A stretch of 64,000 nucleotides of DNA, taken from positions 248,001 to 312,000 of the forward strand of contig NZ_QGDO01000005.1 in the NCBI RefSeq assembly GCF_003149185.1. The letters are read 5' to 3'. Below are positions 34,515-47,784 of the stretch, piece by piece. Below the pieces are notes generated by a model that worked only from the letters and a program-made list of their open reading frames with translations, ran no database searches and was not told where the DNA came from. The position numbers and the translations under genes were made by a program. The DNA is from Sediminitomix flava. GTDB lineage: Bacteria > Bacteroidota > Bacteroidia > Cytophagales > Flammeovirgaceae. Within the stretch, counting starts at the first letter, position 1; each line of letters starts with the position of its first letter.

Positions 34515-37500
34515 TTATAAATTAGGACGATTTTCATCGTTTATGATTACCTTTTTCATTTTATCATTTGCATAGAAAGTTGGGAAGTACATCAGTTCTA
34601 CTTTTGCGGGATTTAGATTAAAGCTTCCTGTAAATCTTGCTGTCAAATCAATTTCAAATCTATATTCTCCAGCCTTCAATTTAGAGCAATAAATAGCAGT
34701 CTCATTCTTGAAGAATTCTCTATGTGTTTCAATACTTCTATTTATATTTTTAGAGGAATATGAACATCCGGCAGGGATAGGCACATTAATCATTACGTAT
34801 TCTGCATCTTTATGGACAGTGACATATGCAATCAATTTTATGTCTTTCCCTGCAATAAGTTGGTTATTACGTGCCTCTTTAACATAAGTCACGATCTCAA
34901 AATCATTGTTTCTAGCTTCTGGAGCGTTGTTCCAATAACGTTGATAGAATGTGAAGTATACAGGCTCATCACCTTCTTTCTGAATTTGAATAGACTCATT
35001 CGGGGAAATAGTAGTAGCGTAAGGGAAGCTTTCAATTTCCTCTTTGATACCGCCCGAAATCCTAAGTTTAGCTGAATGATATTCCTCCTTATCTTCTAAA
35101 AGACCGTCTAATATTGTTTCAACTATTTTTGAAGACTCGTAAGTATTAGTCCAGAAACCATTCTTTCTATTTTCTAATAAATAATTGATGATTTTAGGCA
35201 ATCGTTGATCGTCTTTGTCATGATGTTTAATCATCTGATAGGCTAAAAGAGTAGTCTGAATATTATTATTTAAGAGATTAAATTGATGACCTCCTTCGTA
35301 GAATATATTTCCAAAGATTGTTTCTTTCTGATACTGATTGAGTGTATCTAAGTTGACTTCTAAATCAACTTCTTGTTTAAGTCGTTGAACTCGAAGGTAA
35401 CTATGCAATGAATGTTTTTGCTGATTTAGAGAGTCATTAAATTGTTTCTCTAGTTTTTCCAATTCGGATATATAGTCAATTGAAGCATCTAGTTTATGAA
35501 GTATTTCTAATTGATTTAATCTTTTATCAATGTTTGCGGCATAGTCAAGCTCCCAAATGTATAAGTCTTTTAGCGACTCTTTATCTATAAAAGTTTTGAA
35601 GCCTGATTCCTCAGCTTCTAAAAGAGCTTCAATCGCATAATTTGAGATCCAATTGATTGAAGTAGAGTTTTCCCACCATCCCCAAGTCAGTTGATCGTTT
35701 CTTCGTTTATTAAGTAATCTGATAATTTTTTTGATGGCTTTATCTTGACTAAACTTTTTACCTATAGCTTCATCAATTCTCTTTTGGCTGACCAACATTT
35801 TAAGTTTAGAGGATAGCTGTTCATTACAGAGGTATCGATAAGAAACTACATGTTTTATCTCTTCTTGAACAAGATCAATCAAGTCGGATTGCGCATAAAT
35901 ATTTACTTCTCCTAAGCGCTCATCAAAACTTAAATCAAGGGTTGTGTCTTTGTTAAGAACAAAAAACTCGCCTTCCGTCTCTTCTAGTCCGAGTGGGAGT
36001 ACAGGGATTTTCTTTTTCTCTCCATCATAATATTCTAAATCATCTTGATAGATTTCGTATTTGATACTTAAGCTATCTCCCTTAGCTATTACAGGAAGTT
36101 TTTCGATCGAAGATTTTGCACATAATTCAACCTCATCATTAACGAGATGTTCATTGACATAGAATTTCTTAGAAACTCTCATGGTATCGGGAAGGTAGTT
36201 TTTGACCTTTCCAATAGCTTCTAATGTATCTCCTTCTACTAAGAATTTTGGAATAGAAGTTTGAGCCAATAATGGTTTATATGACTTTATGCTACTTTGC
36301 GTTTGACCTGTCTGTTTTTTAGTATTTGCCGCTAAGAAGAATGTATTCCATTTCGTGACATCATCTGGAAACTTAACTTTGAATTTGGCTTTTCCTTCTT
36401 TATTTGTGATCAGTTTTGGCTCCCAAAATGCTTCATCAGAAAAGTTTTGTCTGAGAGAATTGGATTGAGAAGATAAATCTGGAAAATCACTTTCAAGTTC
36501 GGTATTATTTTCATTTGTAGCTTGTAACTGAATGGGGCCTTTAGTTGAAATTATAATGACACCATTTGAAGCTCTTGAACCATAAATAGCTATTGCTTCA
36601 GTATCTTTCAATACCATCATTTCTTTGATAGAGCTTTGAGGGAAGTTATTAATATTTCCAGCATACACTTTCCCGTCAATCACCACTAATGGCTGATTGT
36701 TGGTGTTGATACTACTAAGTCCTCTGATTCGAATATTAGAACCTTTTCGCCTATTTATAGATACACCAGCTACAGCACCTGTAAGTGATTTTCTTGTTGA
36801 AGAACCATATCCAATTACAACAACTTCTTCTAGTTGTTCAAAGTTTTCTGATAAGGATATATCAAAGAAATCAGAATCAATGAAAATTTCTCTTGTTTCA
36901 AAACCTATATAGCTTATTTGTAAAGTGTTGTAGTCTTTAGGAACATTAATCGTAAATTCTCCCTCAATATTTGTAACTGTACCAAAGTTAGTTCCTTTTA
37001 CGATGACTGAAACTCCCGGTAGAACTCCTTGTGAATCTCTGACTACACCACTGACCAAATAACCTGAACCTGTATATTCAAAGTTTTCAAAATAAGATTG
37101 TCTCAGTTCCTTGAAAACTTTTTCTTCTTTTACATAAAAATCTTCATTCGTAAATAAGTGTCTTTCAATGATGTCACTCACTTCTTTACTAAACTCATCT
37201 TTTTCGAGTTGTTGAGGTTGATAAACCTTAAGAATTGTCTGTCCTTTTTCTTTCACAAAAATAGAGTCCTCGATATGATACTCTTGGTTTGGGTAAAAGA
37301 ATATCATTTTGTAGAGTCCTTCATTTAAGTTGTGAAGAACTCTGTCTTTACCTCTATATATTTTAGTGAAGTAAGGTGTGTCATTTCGCAGAAGAACTAT
37401 ATTTGTAGGCTCTTTTTTGAAGGTGTCTTTTGTCGGACTATAGATCTCAAAAGCTATTTTGGCTTTGCCTTTTTGTGTATAATTCGGGTTTGAATACTTA

Positions 37501-40436
37501 GATTTAGATTTTTTAAGGGCATCTAAATAAGCTTGCCATTGAGCTTCAATTTTCTCTTTGTATAAAATTTCATCATACAGAGATTCTGGTGTATGATCAA
37601 ATTCATATAGCTTGTTTGGGAAATGAGGTTTATCGATTGATCTCATCTTTATTTTTTTCCCTGAGAATTCATATTCAAAACCTGATTCGTGGAAGAAACT
37701 GTGAGAAATACCATCTATTTGTTCTAGTTGAACTAAAGCCTTTACAGGTCCTGCAATGTTAGGTCCATTTTTTCTAGAGTTTAATAAGTAGGTCTGTCCA
37801 TTTGAAGTGATATGTGTGTATTTACCTCCAAAATTATCACGGAATCTGAAGTTATATAAGCTGGCAAGTCTTTTCTCTTTGTAGTCTAATTGATCACCTT
37901 TTGGCTTGTTTTTGATGTTTTCACCTCTAATAGATTCATCCAAACTAAGGATTAGTTTTTTACCCTTCTTAAAATCGACACTATCTAGTGTGATTTCCCT
38001 TTCTGATGTTCGGAGTTTTATTTGATGTTTTCCCGGTTTTATGGAAAAGGAATATGGTGATTTTACCGTAGCCCAACTAAAGTAGATAGGAGTTTCATCC
38101 ACATAAATAATGTATATGTTTTTGAATTTTCCATCTTTTACGACAAATGGAGCAAATTGAGTTTTTGAATCTGAAGTTTCATACTCAAACCTATAAATAC
38201 TGTCTTGAGGAAATGTGAATTGATAGTATGCAATACTATCTAATGAATGATTGGATTGCCATTTTGTATAATTGATAGGAGCTTTGAAATGCGTATTTAA
38301 ATCCTCTTTTCTGAATGAATTTATGACCTTTTTCTGTTTTCGCTGTTTTGCAAATGTAGGGACTTGCGGTGCGGTATATTTAAACTTTTGAGTCAGTCCG
38401 TAGGCTGTAAGGTCTACATTTTCAACTGGCTCACCTTTGTAATCTGTAACACTTACTTCAATTTCTGTTTCTTGGCCTGGGAAAATAATATTGGGTTGTT
38501 CAACATTTAAATTCAGTATCCTGTCATTTACGTCTACTGAATACATTTTATTTTCAACTTTACCAGCCCATATGAATGACGCAGAAATAAAATAATTCGC
38601 TTTCGAAGATTCTTTTTGTTTAAACTCAAGAGTTGTACCATAGCCTTTATCAATCAATTGATTGACTTTATAGATATGGTAACTAAAAGGAATTTCTCTT
38701 GGGTTTTGAATCTGTATGCTAATCGAATCAGCAGTTCGCTCGGTAAAACAATTGAAATTTGAGTTTAAATCAGATATTTTCTTCTCAGTATTTAAATGTT
38801 CTGTTTTTGCGATGTACTTAAAAGCATAAGGATCTAGTTTTAATCGATAAGGTGTTTCCGAGGTCTCAATTAAAATTTCATTTTGGAAATGGTCAACTTT
38901 ATAAATATCAATTTCTTTCGGTATTTCACTTCCATTTTCAGCGTAAGTAAAAGATAAAGAATCTTGCTGCTCTTCAATCAGAATTTCTTTTAAGGAATAG
39001 AAATAAGAGAATTGCTTTTTCTTCTCTAATTTTTCATTGTCAGAGGTTCTTAATGTGACATTGACTGTATAATCGAAGTTTGCTTTTGGAAATTCTTTGT
39101 CGGATATGTTGATTTTCGTTTCTCCTGTTTTTTTCAATTCTTTTGAAAAAGACATCAATGTATCCGGTACAAAGACATGATCGTCGAAAGTAGCTTTAGG
39201 CGACTTTGATAAGACCACAATATCTAGTTTCCCATCATAAATATTCAAATCATTCTCGTCTTTCCCACTTACATAAAAAAGAATAGAATCCTTTTTATAA
39301 TGGTTTTTCTGAGCTGTCCTAAGGATGAGGTTTATCGATTTTAGTTCGTATTCTTCATATCTAAAAGCAGTAGACTTATAGATATCTTCTTGCTTATCAT
39401 CTGAAAGAAGAACAAGTTGATAGTTTCTATCTAATTGAAGTTTTAGTGAGTCAGCAATTTCAAATTCATATTCGTATGCACCTTTTTGATATGGACGAAT
39501 TGTAGAGATATATTTATAATTATTGTATCCTTTCTTAATTGCTACTTTAACTTTTTTATTGATAGGATTTCCTTTCTCATTGGTCAGAAAAGCTTTCAGT
39601 TTTATCGTATTATTAGGCTTAAATTTGGGCTTGTTTAAAACTAGATAACCTTTTGCATGATCTTGCCACCCACCATTACAATAGTCAGGATCGAATAGGC
39701 ACACGGTTTTTTCATAAAGATCAACAAAGAATTGTTTAGTGTTGTAGATTGATCCAATGAGATAACCATTCGAAATAGATTTTACACCATCAATCGGTAA
39801 GTGTATCACATAGTCTATTGGCAGCCAGATGTATTTTATTGGAGTTCGGTAGATGATAGGCTGATAAAAACGTTTGAAAGCTGAGTTTTTATAAGTTCTA
39901 TTTAATTGGGTAAATGAAGTGATATTATTGTAACTGACTTCAAGTAATCCTTTTTTGTTAGATTTTTTATCGGTAAAAGTCTTAGTTTTTGCATCATATT
40001 TTAGCTTTTTCCCATCTACAGTTACTGTAACTTGTTTGATTGAATTGCCTTCTAGATCAAGTACTTTGATCATTAAATCTGTCTCATTACCGAATACTTC
40101 TATGTGAAAATCTAATACAGAGGCGATATCAAAAAACTGAATATCCTGTCGTGCATAAGTTTTAATATAGTGTCCTTTCTCTAATTCTAGGCTCTTAGGA
40201 TTTTCTGTAGGAAATGAATCAACTAAGGTGTGGAGAAATGATTGATCAATTTCAGTAGAGGTGTTAGTATATACTTCTCTAGCCTCAGCCTCTTTAAGTT
40301 TATAAACATAGGTGAATGGACTACTTTTTCTACTGTTCAATAAATCTTGTCCGTTTATTGAGAATGTACTTAGGAAGAGTATAAAAAATACATTTAGCCC
40401 GAGTAGAACTTTTATTGGAAAGAGTTTTGGTAGCAT
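34515..40436 (-). CDS. Alpha-2-macroglobulin-like protein with embedded TonB plug
   Basis: 1973 residues; signal peptide ends TFSINGQ, no lipobox. N-terminal macroglobulin beta domains include an MG2-like unit (about 265-370, GYLVLNKPKFKPNNTIKLKA) and more to about 1100. Then comes a carboxypeptidase-regulatory module (about 1125-1205, SGVVRDSQGVLPGVSVIVKG) and a SusC-type TonB plug (about 1215-1300, NIRIRGLSSINTNNQPLVVI, ending NGVIIISTKG), but no barrel follows. Next is the A2M core (FWEPKLITNKEGKAKFKVKF) and a helical thioester-type domain with CNEQ: Cys1537, Gln1540, the residues that form the thioester in CGEQ proteins. The C-terminal domain (1860-1973) ends the A2M part. Probably a periplasmic or surface protease trap or protein anchor. 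A2M-plug hybrids are, as I recall, found in other Bacteroidota; the plug's role is unclear. Confidence 0.85.
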   Translation of the reverse strand: MLPKLFPIKVLLGLNVFFILFLSTFSINGQDLLNSRKSSPFTYVYKLKEAEAREVYTNTSTEIDQSFLHTLVDSFPTENPKSLELEKGHYIKTYARQDIQFFDIASVLDFHIEVFGNETDLMIKVLDLEGNSIKQVTVTVDGKKLKYDAKTKTFTDKKSNKKGLLEVSYNNITSFTQLNRTYKNSAFKRFYQPIIYRTPIKYIWLPIDYVIHLPIDGVKSISNGYLIGSIYNTKQFFVDLYEKTVCLFDPDYCNGGWQDHAKGYLVLNKPKFKPNNTIKLKAFLTNEKGNPINKKVKVAIKKGYNNYKYISTIRPYQKGAYEYEFEIADSLKLQLDRNYQLVLLSDDKQEDIYKSTAFRYEEYELKSINLILRTAQKNHYKKDSILFYVSGKDENDLNIYDGKLDIVVLSKSPKATFDDHVFVPDTLMSFSKELKKTGETKINISDKEFPKANFDYTVNVTLRTSDNEKLEKKKQFSYFYSLKEILIEEQQDSLSFTYAENGSEIPKEIDIYKVDHFQNEILIETSETPYRLKLDPYAFKYIAKTEHLNTEKKISDLNSNFNCFTERTADSISIQIQNPREIPFSYHIYKVNQLIDKGYGTTLEFKQKESSKANYFISASFIWAGKVENKMYSVDVNDRILNLNVEQPNIIFPGQETEIEVSVTDYKGEPVENVDLTAYGLTQKFKYTAPQVPTFAKQRKQKKVINSFRKEDLNTHFKAPINYTKWQSNHSLDSIAYYQFTFPQDSIYRFEYETSDSKTQFAPFVVKDGKFKNIYIIYVDETPIYFSWATVKSPYSFSIKPGKHQIKLRTSEREITLDSVDFKKGKKLILSLDESIRGENIKNKPKGDQLDYKEKRLASLYNFRFRDNFGGKYTHITSNGQTYLLNSRKNGPNIAGPVKALVQLEQIDGISHSFFHESGFEYEFSGKKIKMRSIDKPHFPNKLYEFDHTPESLYDEILYKEKIEAQWQAYLDALKKSKSKYSNPNYTQKGKAKIAFEIYSPTKDTFKKEPTNIVLLRNDTPYFTKIYRGKDRVLHNLNEGLYKMIFFYPNQEYHIEDSIFVKEKGQTILKVYQPQQLEKDEFSKEVSDIIERHLFTNEDFYVKEEKVFKELRQSYFENFEYTGSGYLVSGVVRDSQGVLPGVSVIVKGTNFGTVTNIEGEFTINVPKDYNTLQISYIGFETREIFIDSDFFDISLSENFEQLEEVVVIGYGSSTRKSLTGAVAGVSINRRKGSNIRIRGLSSINTNNQPLVVIDGKVYAGNINNFPQSSIKEMMVLKDTEAIAIYGSRASNGVIIISTKGPIQLQATNENNTELESDFPDLSSQSNSLRQNFSDEAFWEPKLITNKEGKAKFKVKFPDDVTKWNTFFLAANTKKQTGQTQSSIKSYKPLLAQTSIPKFLVEGDTLEAIGKVKNYLPDTMRVSKKFYVNEHLVNDEVELCAKSSIEKLPVIAKGDSLSIKYEIYQDDLEYYDGEKKKIPVLPLGLEETEGEFFVLNKDTTLDLSFDERLGEVNIYAQSDLIDLVQEEIKHVVSYRYLCNEQLSSKLKMLVSQKRIDEAIGKKFSQDKAIKKIIRLLNKRRNDQLTWGWWENSTSINWISNYAIEALLEAEESGFKTFIDKESLKDLYIWELDYAANIDKRLNQLEILHKLDASIDYISELEKLEKQFNDSLNQQKHSLHSYLRVQRLKQEVDLEVNLDTLNQYQKETIFGNIFYEGGHQFNLLNNNIQTTLLAYQMIKHHDKDDQRLPKIINYLLENRKNGFWTNTYESSKIVETILDGLLEDKEEYHSAKLRISGGIKEEIESFPYATTISPNESIQIQKEGDEPVYFTFYQRYWNNAPEARNNDFEIVTYVKEARNNQLIAGKDIKLIAYVTVHKDAEYVMINVPIPAGCSYSSKNINRSIETHREFFKNETAIYCSKLKAGEYRFEIDLTARFTGSFNLNPAKVELMYFPTFYANDKMKKVIINDENRPNL

Positions 40437-45735: not shown

Positions 45736-47784
45736 ATGACTTTTTTTAAACATTGGACAAGAAAAGGCTATGCTCTTTTCAACACATTAGGGAAATCAAT
45801 TAAAATCTGTGTACTTCTAACGACAGTTTTAGGTAGTTTTTCACAACAGGTAATGGCACAAAATGAAGCTGAAAGCGAAACGGAAAGAGAAACCTCAAAA
45901 GAGTATGCCGAAGAGGAGGTATTACTAAATGAGGTGGTTGTGCAAACACAGCGTGTTCCTGCCGTCTATTCCCAGCAAGCTAGGGTAGTGAATGTCATCA
46001 CAAAAGATCAAATCAAACAAGCTCCAGTTCAAAGTATCCAAGAACTATTAGAATATGTATCTGGAGTGGATATTCAACAAAGAGGCCCGATGGGTATACA
46101 GGCCGATATCAGTATCAGAGGAGGATCGTTCGACCAAGCATTGGTACTCTTAAACGGAGTAAATATCAATAACCCACAAACTGGACACCTTAATTTAAAC
46201 CTCCCTGTAGATATCGAAAGCGTAGAAGCTGTAGAAATTCTTCAAGGGCCAGGTTCTAGAGTATTTGGCCCAAGTGCTTTTAGTGGTGCAATTAATATTA
46301 TTACCAATAAAAGTAAAGAAAATAATATTTCATTGAATGCAATGGGTGGTGACTTTGGAACATATAAAGTTGCACTTTCAGGTACTTATAATTCAGGAAA
46401 TATGACTCATTTTGTTTCTGTAAGTAATGGAGCAAGTGATGGATTTGCTCGTAATACAGATTATAATACAGAAACATACTATTACAATGGTAACCTACAG
46501 ACTTATATAGGAGATTTAGATTTGCAAGTAGGGTATGGAAATAAAGCTTTTGGAGCTAGTACTTTTTACTCTGCAAATTTCCCAGATCAGTTTGAAGAAA
46601 ACTCCTCTCTTTATACAAGTCTTAAGTTTACTTCTAATACAAAAGTAAAATTCTCTCCTTTAGTTTACTGGAATCGTAGTCAAGATAGATTCGAGTTGTT
46701 TAGAGACTTTAATAATGCTGCTGATTGGTATGTTGATCATAATTACCATATGACAGATGTTTATGGTACTAACTTATCAGCAGAATATGAATCTAAGTTT
46801 GGTATCACTGCTATTGGAGTTGATTTTAGGTCTGAAAATATTTTAAGTACTGTTTTAGGTACTGATATGGACGAGCCTAAAGAAATACCTGGAGAAGAAT
46901 CATTATTTACTAAATCTGAGTCTAGACATAATATATCTACTTATTTCGAGCATAATTTATATCTAAATAAGTTTACCGCTTCTTTGGGAGTTATGGCTAA
47001 CTGGAGTCAGAAATATGAAGGAGATTCATATACTTTCAATACTTTCCCAGGTGTAGATTTGGCTTATGATTTAGGAAAGGGCTATAGTGTTTTTGGTTCT
47101 GTGAATACAGCAATGAGACTTCCTACATTTACTGATATGTATTATTCGGGACCAACAGATCTAGGAAACCCTGATCTAGAAGCAGAAAAGTCGATTACTT
47201 TTGAAGGTGGATTCAAATTTGGTAAGTCCTCATTGAATGCAAGTATTTCAGCTTTTAATAGATTGGGAAAAAATATAATTGACTGGGTACAAACTGAAGA
47301 AGGTGGACAGTTTGTTGCAACAAACGTTCAAGAACTAGACACTAAAGGTTTTGATCTGTTTGTTCAGTATTCTCCTCAAATGGATTTTGGGAAGTCTATG
47401 CCAATTAGAAAGGTCACAATGACTTATACTTATCTAAATGTTGAGGCAAATGAGAGTGAAGAGGAAGTTTCTAAATACGTACTTTCAAATCTTCGTAATA
47501 AATTAGTACTTGGTCTAGATCATCAGATTTTCAGAAATCTATATGCAAATTGGCAAATCAACTATCAAGATAGAGCTTATAATACTTGGAGTTTGGAAGA
47601 TCAAACAGAGAATCCTTTTGAACCTGTTTGGTTGATTGATGCTAGAGTTTATTATCAAAAAGATTTCTATACATTCTATGTTGAAGCATCGAATTTATTA
47701 GATGTCGATTATGTAGATTTTATTTCTGTCGAACAACCAGGAAGATGGATTAAAGCTGGTTTGAAATTAGATTTGAACTTATAA
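45736..47784 (+). CDS. TonB-dependent outer-membrane receptor
   Basis: 682 residues. Signal peptide ends QQVMAQ at about residue 42. A short acidic linker leads to EEVLLNEVVVQTQRVPAVY, where a TonB box would be expected, and then the plug (about 60-185: SIQELLEYVSGVDIQQRGPMGIQADISIRGGSFDQALVLLNGVNI, ending AFSGAINIITNK). The remaining residues form a 22-strand barrel. No carboxypeptidase-regulatory domain, so this is a BtuB/FepA-type receptor rather than a SusC type; the ligand (cobalamin, siderophore or metal chelate) is undetermined. It is not accompanied by a susD or transport operon. Confidence 0.92.
   Translation: MTFFKHWTRKGYALFNTLGKSIKICVLLTTVLGSFSQQVMAQNEAESETERETSKEYAEEEVLLNEVVVQTQRVPAVYSQQARVVNVITKDQIKQAPVQSIQELLEYVSGVDIQQRGPMGIQADISIRGGSFDQALVLLNGVNINNPQTGHLNLNLPVDIESVEAVEILQGPGSRVFGPSAFSGAINIITNKSKENNISLNAMGGDFGTYKVALSGTYNSGNMTHFVSVSNGASDGFARNTDYNTETYYYNGNLQTYIGDLDLQVGYGNKAFGASTFYSANFPDQFEENSSLYTSLKFTSNTKVKFSPLVYWNRSQDRFELFRDFNNAADWYVDHNYHMTDVYGTNLSAEYESKFGITAIGVDFRSENILSTVLGTDMDEPKEIPGEESLFTKSESRHNISTYFEHNLYLNKFTASLGVMANWSQKYEGDSYTFNTFPGVDLAYDLGKGYSVFGSVNTAMRLPTFTDMYYSGPTDLGNPDLEAEKSITFEGGFKFGKSSLNASISAFNRLGKNIIDWVQTEEGGQFVATNVQELDTKGFDLFVQYSPQMDFGKSMPIRKVTMTYTYLNVEANESEEEVSKYVLSNLRNKLVLGLDHQIFRNLYANWQINYQDRAYNTWSLEDQTENPFEPVWLIDARVYYQKDFYTFYVEASNLLDVDYVDFISVEQPGRWIKAGLKLDLNL

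Follow-up and report, generated by a model that had tools for sequence, protein, structure and literature searches.

Alpha-2-macroglobulins (A2Ms) are protease traps in which cleavage of a bait region leads to a conformational change that exposes a thioester, whereupon the protease is trapped (PMC4498604 and PMC8267569, both in the portions available). In human A2M, the bait region corresponds to residues 690-728, between MG6a and LNK, and a bait made entirely of Gly-Gly-Ser leaves the protein functional, i.e., wholesale replacement of the bait is tolerated (PMC8267569, same portion). E. coli A2M carries a largely disordered bait domain inside MG8, of which residues 923-942 (20 residues) are without density in the cleaved form (PMC4498604, same portion). 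As for the transporters of the SusC type, NMR shows the Ton box of BT1763 to be flexible, and mutants of its VDEVVV motif display growth defects on levan resembling those of a SusD deletion (PMC7782687, in the portion available).

The present analysis focuses on a bacterial A2M that carries the N-terminal part of a SusC protein. A full-text search, outside the scope of which lay most subscription papers and bioRxiv, found, among the papers listed, none linking A2Ms with TonB modules or a plug. The combination of SusC and A2M domains may well be visible in domain databases.

A thioester A2M with a SusC N-terminal module at the bait position

The window, i.e., the whole stretch of 64,000 nucleotides of Sediminitomix flava DNA that was analyzed, contains an A2M gene that forms a single open frame in a 6.6-Mb genome (Table 1). 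The encoded domains are, in order, a signal peptide, macroglobulin domains, a SusC N-terminus (residues 1128-1301), an A2M domain, a thioester domain and bMG10. Elsewhere in the window, at positions 45736-47784 (+), an ordinary TonB-dependent receptor with both plug and barrel adjoins a CorA gene.

Table 1. Features of the A2M gene, with positions in the window and the evidence behind each assignment.
Feature	Position	Strand	Basis
A2M gene, 1973 aa	34515..40436	-	open reading frame
Signal peptide, ~residues 1-29, ending ..FSING/Q	40350..40436	-	read by eye from sequence
MG2-like domain, residues 262-333	39438..39653	-	E 1.6e-4, below Pfam cut-off
NTE (CarboxypepD_reg-like), residues 1128-1200	36837..37055	-	Pfam, model, structural match
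TonB box LEEVVVIGYG, residues 1202-1211	36804..36833	-	motif, conservation; cf. VDEVVV of BT1763 (PMC7782687, in part)
Shortened SusC-type plug, residues 1212-1301	36534..36803	-	SusC sequence matches, spacing, model
SusC/RagA signature TIGR04057, residues 1270-1299	36540..36629	-	profile match
Disordered, fast-evolving linker, residues 1302-1325, candidate protease-cleaved bait	36462..36533	-	entropy, pLDDT, length
A2M domain PF00207, residues 1336-1422	36171..36431	-	Pfam
Helical thioester domain, ~residues 1519-1780	35097..35882	-	model helices; A2M/complement structural matches there
Thioester motif CNEQ, residues 1537-1540	35817..35828	-	conserved 68/68
bMG10 domain, residues 1856-1952	34581..34871	-	Pfam

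The protein is a thioester A2M by its CxEQ residues, its PF00207 domain (E 2e-16) and its bMG10 domain (E 1e-12), both domains scoring over the Pfam cut-off, the bond itself being predicted from the residues. An earlier note on this DNA had pointed to the thioester spacing of Cys1537 and Gln1540 and had named their non-conservation in homologues as grounds for abandoning the idea; both residues are invariant in the 68 full-length proteins compared, the window A2M included (32 of the 100 sequences described below were dropped as shorter than 1850 aa, mostly where a sequence or contig ended early). The best Foldseek matches of the A2M half were the E. coli and Salmonella A2Ms (5a42, 4ziq, 4u4j, 4u48), and human A2ML1 and complement were also found. 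In a structural comparison of this half, the 50 rows shown had Z scores of 19.2-22.8, most of them over ~470-620 residues and several domains with an rmsd of 8-19 Å, and the thioester domain alone superposed on 9y6c with an rmsd of 3.4 over 256 residues. A helical thioester domain and an A2M-like C-terminal fold are thereby predicted in the window A2M; because the model of residues 774-1973 has a pTM of 0.51, domain placement and the filling of the ring by the insert are left uninterpreted. There is no cysteine in the first 100 residues and hence no lipobox, and a loose lipobox scan of the 68 N-termini flagged 11 proteins, the window A2M not among them, so that anchoring is possible in some relatives. 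Judging from the signal peptide, the window A2M is most likely secreted and periplasmic.

The insert had been described earlier as a SusC-type NTE and plug within an A2M, with no barrel behind it, and profile searches and solved structures bear this description out. CarbopepD_reg_2 matches residues 1128-1207 (E 5e-17), TIGR04056 (SusC/RagA) scores 172.8 bits in two stretches against a cut-off of 368 set for a whole SusC, and solved SusC chains align to residues 1128-1302. The SusC signature TIGR04057 scores 45.6 bits on the whole chain (cut-off 46.2), 48.7 bits on the excised insert region and 52.3 bits in the genome scan; the Pfam Plug model is absent among the 11 Pfam families listed for the protein. 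The best structural match of the NTE in a model of the insert is the crystal structure of a SusC NTE (9hfj, Z 14.5, rmsd 1.4 over 78 residues). The plug part is modeled as strands and one helix, with block means of 75-94, and its fold is weakly matched by SusC chains (Foldseek: 8aa4, 8a9y, 5fq6 and others; E 2e-3 to 2e-2; 33-43% identity); a second structural aligner listed essentially NTE matches and has no bearing on the plug. Identification of the plug thus rests mainly on sequence, and its fold seems to be retained. The possibility, raised in advance as a reason to drop the idea, that the segment is simply another macroglobulin fold did not materialize, as its sequence and, to a weak degree, its fold match those of SusC plugs. 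A plug had been placed at about residues 1215-1300; its SusC type stands, and the description is to be amended in that the plug is shortened and preceded by a TonB box at residues 1202-1211.

The same earlier reading located the insert mid-chain, which is correct as to its internal position and understates the case, as the SusC insert occupies the position where A2Ms carry the protease bait. Human A2M residues 729-828 align by sequence with window residues 1326-1425 (6tav), and human residue 730 pairs with window residue 1327 in the structural comparison (7o7p_A, Z 22.1, rmsd 9.3, 499 residues), in which E. coli A2M residue 965 (4rtd) also pairs with window residue 1332. From these alignments it follows that the SusC module, together with a linker of ~24 residues, replaces the bait. 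The position was assigned from the residue numbers of the human bait rather than from PF07703 (“bait region domain”), a model without a match in the Pfam scan of the window A2M and which in relatives sits upstream of the insert site. The linker has the highest mean entropy (3.11 bits) of the 14 segments compared, is 17-35 aa long in 100 bait regions (median 23), and is of low confidence in both predicted models, with a pLDDT below 50 at residues 1306-1324. By position, variability and low pLDDT, it is a predicted disordered candidate bait ahead of the A2M domain.

Distribution, conservation and origin of the insert

Relatives such as the earlier note had thought might exist are found by a core profile search in 57 of the 291 genomes of the order and in 6 of 395 genomes drawn phylum-wide, the own genome being counted in both cases. 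A search of genome contigs yielded 324 relatives; the 80 best of them, which were retained for study, span Flammeovirga, Pontibacter, Rufibacter, Mucilaginibacter, Pedobacter, Chitinophaga, Marinilabilia, Aequorivita, Saprospiraceae, Bacteroidales and others, and the family is present across Bacteroidia. Together with the window A2M and 19 more, these provide 100 bait regions, some of the 19 repeating genomes, so that not all are independent. At E values up to 0.01, the SusC/RagA model matches 99 of these regions, CarbopepD_reg_2 98, the SusC signature 92 and Pfam Plug 82; a bait-region profile run over the 395 genomes was set aside because SusC matches swamped it. Some members depart from this organization. 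L040 keeps the NTE and the TonB box and has lost most of the plug, and in L139 and L159 the NTE and box are present and the plug is absent by eye. In L075 (1489-4875, -), a barrel domain of the PorG/DUF6089 type (residues ~187-364 of the fragment) precedes the A2M domain at 510 and replaces the SusC module (Pfam DUF6089 over cut-off; NCBIfam PorG E 8e-20, below its cut-off). At L106, L108, L161 and other loci, a further frame of the same family adjoins the A2M as a tandem or split copy, the second frame of L161 having 1950 aa and a start like that of an A2M.

The A2M plug no longer keeps a length that is constant among SusC proteins. All 24 SusC proteins have 59-60 residues between the TonB box and the IRG motif, as opposed to 24-67 (median 44) in the 100 A2M rows and 30 in the window A2M, whose plug is 29-30 residues shorter than that of SusC between these two points. 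Sequence conservation in the plug is looser on average than in SusC (mean entropy 1.69 vs. 1.16), as is that of the NTE (1.95 vs. 1.60), whereas the TonB box is close to its SusC counterpart (0.89, range 0.67-1.22 with the A2Ms drawn to 24 rows, vs. 0.72), all three comparisons being made with a SusC control of 24 sequences from one bacterial family that contains one duplicate pair (25 of the 49 SusC loci were dropped for having no frame with both motifs).

The TonB box was considered as the best conserved segment of the protein, a candidacy that was rejected: among 14 segments that differ in length its mean is the lowest, but its mean entropy of 0.97 bits in the 68 full-length proteins ranks 77th lowest among 1689 ten-residue windows (eleventh when non-overlapping). 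Ten-residue windows with lower values include those at 1942 (0.31), 1537, the thioester (0.37), 1884 (0.41) and 1331 (0.62). Within the insert, the box has the lowest entropy, level with the end of the plug at 1285-1294 (0.98), and selection is therefore not confined to the box. A box-like string occurs in 89 of the 100 bait regions, by a pattern written after the motif had been seen, and 11 regions, one of them a truncated row, have no clear box. Predicted confidence at the box is low in both models (below 50 in one, block mean 54 in the other) and is taken as disorder. Conserved at about the level of SusC and devoid of predicted structure, the box looks like a binding motif. The motif suggests that it is a candidate for TonB binding, which lends support, as a possibility, to the contact with TonB-type proteins that had been proposed earlier as one job for the plug.

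Several lines of analysis bear on the origin of the insert. When the genome was searched with its own A2M, 103 matches were obtained, i.e., one full-length match, one match confined to the A2M domain of another A2M, and the rest in or overlapping the insert region. The SusC signature gave 45 matches in this genome, which correspond to 43 frames of SusC size (866-1122 aa), the present A2M and one 134-aa fragment. The latter frame, at G000:C1:1686598-1686840, has a weak SusC signature and probably represents a SusC fragment in decay. When 18 genomes of the bacterial family were searched with the insert, the seven best non-self matches were A2M orthologues (116-147 bits), the best SusC reaching 91 bits; three further A2M orthologues (G017, G001 and G014; 82-87 bits) rank among the SusC matches, and the shortened spacing common to the A2Ms favors them in such a search. 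With the variable middle excluded, the window insert is about equally near to SusC and to the other A2M inserts (mean identity 45% vs. 42%). Monophyly of the inserts in the family of the window A2M was not rejected (p-AU 0.533; constrained tree better by 2.6 log units) in a tree of 95 A2M rows and 24 SusC rows from which L075, L161, L139, L079 and L159 were left out. Distances in the insert and in the core are correlated among the 68 full-length proteins (r 0.57 for the NTE and 0.56 for the plug; 0 of 200 permutations as high), the correlation being weak among distant pairs (0.18 and 0.32, respectively). Recent gene conversion from resident SusC genes was also considered and is not supported by the insert search, the tree or the distance tests. 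As for an ancestral state, A2Ms of the GCVEQ type from the same bacterial family have a carboxypeptidase-regulatory-like match near the insert site, over the Pfam cut-off only in L046; this arrangement is a possible ancestral state, into which a SusC NTE could have recombined.

TonB-related modules in a second A2M family

The genome encodes a second, distant A2M of 1617 aa with a GCFEQ thioester (L051:5146-9996, -; G000:C2 ~283145-287995). Its residues 801-878, ahead of the A2M domain at 935 and hence at the bait position, form a TonB C-terminal domain (PF03544, E 4e-19), to which TonB boxes bind. Over 134 residues, this region is 59% identical to a frame of 339 aa, presumably TonB, from its own genome and 35-37% identical to the TonB C-terminal domains of L218 and L219, a difference that speaks for separate uptake of the domain.

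The second family was represented by 46 distinct bait regions (30, plus four further genes, plus 12), with L257 cut short. An HMM trained on SusC finds a plug in 14 of the 46, 12 strongly, and gave no match in 940 shuffled sequences. TonB C-terminal domains were counted in three regions, with Pfam for 10 regions and, elsewhere, an HMM built from the three domains plus a pattern, so that weaker copies could be missed in this count. In L218:958-1980 (+) and L219:1-951 (+), the NTE, the TonB box and the TonB C-terminal domain lie within one bait region, and this pairing in one chain is possibly an internal latch. On a tree of 34 cores, 23 members have neither plug nor TonB C-terminal domain; the latter requires three changes, gains or losses, two of which are forced by well supported branches. 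The plug-bearing members form one clade of moderate support (84), in which L239 was labeled by eye, being read as a decayed plug that the plug HMM does not match, and L216 sits on a long branch. On 75 columns, a topology test of whether the plugs of the two A2M families share one origin gave a p-AU of 0.467, and no separate capture of the plug is proposed. Among the members without a plug, the bait is mostly disorder-like, and in L220, L224 and L227 such a bait holds a box-like ELNEVVVM or ELNEVIIM, which is either left over from a plug or a motif standing by itself. The two A2M families co-occur weakly (13 genomes vs. 8.4 expected, P 0.049; genome lists compiled by hand). At the bait position, other Bacteroidota A2Ms carry a TonB box with a TonB domain, a TonB box with a plug or, once, a PorG-type barrel.

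Possible roles of the insert and comparison with known systems

Our preferred reading, to which a probability of roughly 0.4 is assigned, is that the window protein is a secreted, most likely periplasmic, thioester A2M trap whose bait was invaded by a SusC N-terminal module and which docks on the TonB/outer-membrane import machinery. The module (NTE, TonB box and plug) would have entered the bait position and been retained; the C-terminal domain of TonB would hold the box, and the trap would be docked at the gates formed by TonB and TonB-dependent transporters, where foreign proteases may enter the periplasm. A protease cutting the exposed linker (residues 1302-1325) would free the thioester domain, which would bind and trap it. 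For sister A2Ms that contain a TonB C-terminal domain, docking would be reversed and take place on the TonB boxes of transporters. In favor of docking, the insert lies at the bait position, its TonB box, of low predicted confidence, is conserved near the SusC level whereas NTE and plug are looser on average and the plug spacing varies, modules of the TonB system recur at the bait of the second family, and a PorG-type barrel precedes the A2M domain in one relative. Against it, the TonB box is not the most conserved segment, is equaled by the end of the plug and is not clear in 11 of 100 regions, the periplasmic location derives from a signal peptide read by eye, the TonB C-terminal domain is rare (3 of 46), the two families co-occur only weakly, 23 of the 34 members of the second-family tree have neither module, and the SusC control is small and from one bacterial family.

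The same observations can be accounted for otherwise. The module could be a bait that mimics a substrate, such that proteases attacking the periplasmic side of SusC would cut the displayed module and be trapped, TonB remaining unbound; its location at the bait, the 43 SusC-size frames with the signature, which make the module resemble an abundant surface, and the good conservation of both box and plug end agree with such a role, which is nevertheless unlikely given that the NTE and plug, though not the box, are looser on average than in SusC, and that the TonB C-terminal domain and PorG-type barrel found at the same place in relatives mimic no SusC. We judge just as improbable that the module arrived by accident long ago and has been retained as a spacer in a bait that accepts any insert. 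Baits do tolerate wholesale replacement (PMC8267569, in the portion available), plug length drifts freely and a few members have lost most or all of the plug; however, neutrality would not readily explain why a ten-residue motif devoid of predicted structure is conserved near the SusC level, why L040 keeps the NTE and box despite losing most of its plug, and why TonB-related modules occupy the same position in the second family.

Two further proposals involve a partner other than TonB. If the TonB box of the window A2M bound the TonB C-terminal domain that the second A2M carries, a heteromeric trap would result, with an internal latch in the one-chain relatives; both partners are present in this genome and two relatives unite box and domain in one bait region, but the domain occurs in only 3 of 46 regions and the box in many genomes where no A2M with such a domain was found, which makes this pairing quite improbable. 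The earlier proposal of a plug that closes off, or docks in, a different barrel fares worst and is very improbable. The plug fold seems to be retained, with good conservation of its last helix and strand; yet a plug fitted to a barrel should tolerate neither the free variation of a length fixed in 24 of 24 SusC proteins nor relaxed conservation, and the conserved partner barrel expected next door was not found when 795 frames of at least 150 aa were clustered from 80 loci, many flanks of which ended at contig ends (the most widespread neighbor family occurs at 17 of the 80 loci, 14 of them Mucilaginibacter).

A broader and rather doubtful extension of the docking hypothesis is that Bacteroidota wired their protease traps to TonB in two ways, with A2Ms bearing a box and cut-down plug and A2Ms bearing a TonB C-terminal domain, both of which would be positioned or sprung by the pull of TonB at the import gates and might also latch together. 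A bait that serves as a TonB connector would be a direct and testable link, in a major bacterial phylum, between envelope defense and TonB-dependent transport, and, if the trap–TonB reading is true, a protease trap may be wired to the import gates of the cell. This locus also offers a TonB box outside any barrel, where the role of the motif can be isolated, and a natural domain insertion at the bait, a site that has already been engineered in human A2M (PMC8267569, in the portion available).

Among described systems, type I bacterial A2Ms (ECAM/YfhM of E. coli and the Salmonella A2M), which provide the best Foldseek matches, share with the window A2M the CxEQ motif, the A2M domain, the C-terminal MG10, the helical thioester domain and a bait housed in a single MG domain immediately ahead of the A2M domain. 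The window A2M differs from the ECAM/YfhM subtype, with its inner-membrane anchor and pbpC neighbor, in having no lipobox, a SusC module at the bait and no penicillin-binding protein among the nine neighbors scanned. SusC/RagA transporters show the same succession of NTE, TonB box and plug; unlike them, the window protein has no outer-membrane β-barrel, its plug is shorter (spacing 30 vs. 59-60), and its module is internal to an A2M, the chain running on into A2M domains, so that it is not classed as a SusC. Complement C3/C5 belong to the same superfamily according to structural matches and have a folded anaphylatoxin domain adjoining the same junction, whereas the domain inserted in the window A2M is unrelated and is not known to be released. 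Finally, proteins with a TonB C-terminal domain are represented by the second A2M of this genome, in which PF03544 is embedded in the bait region.
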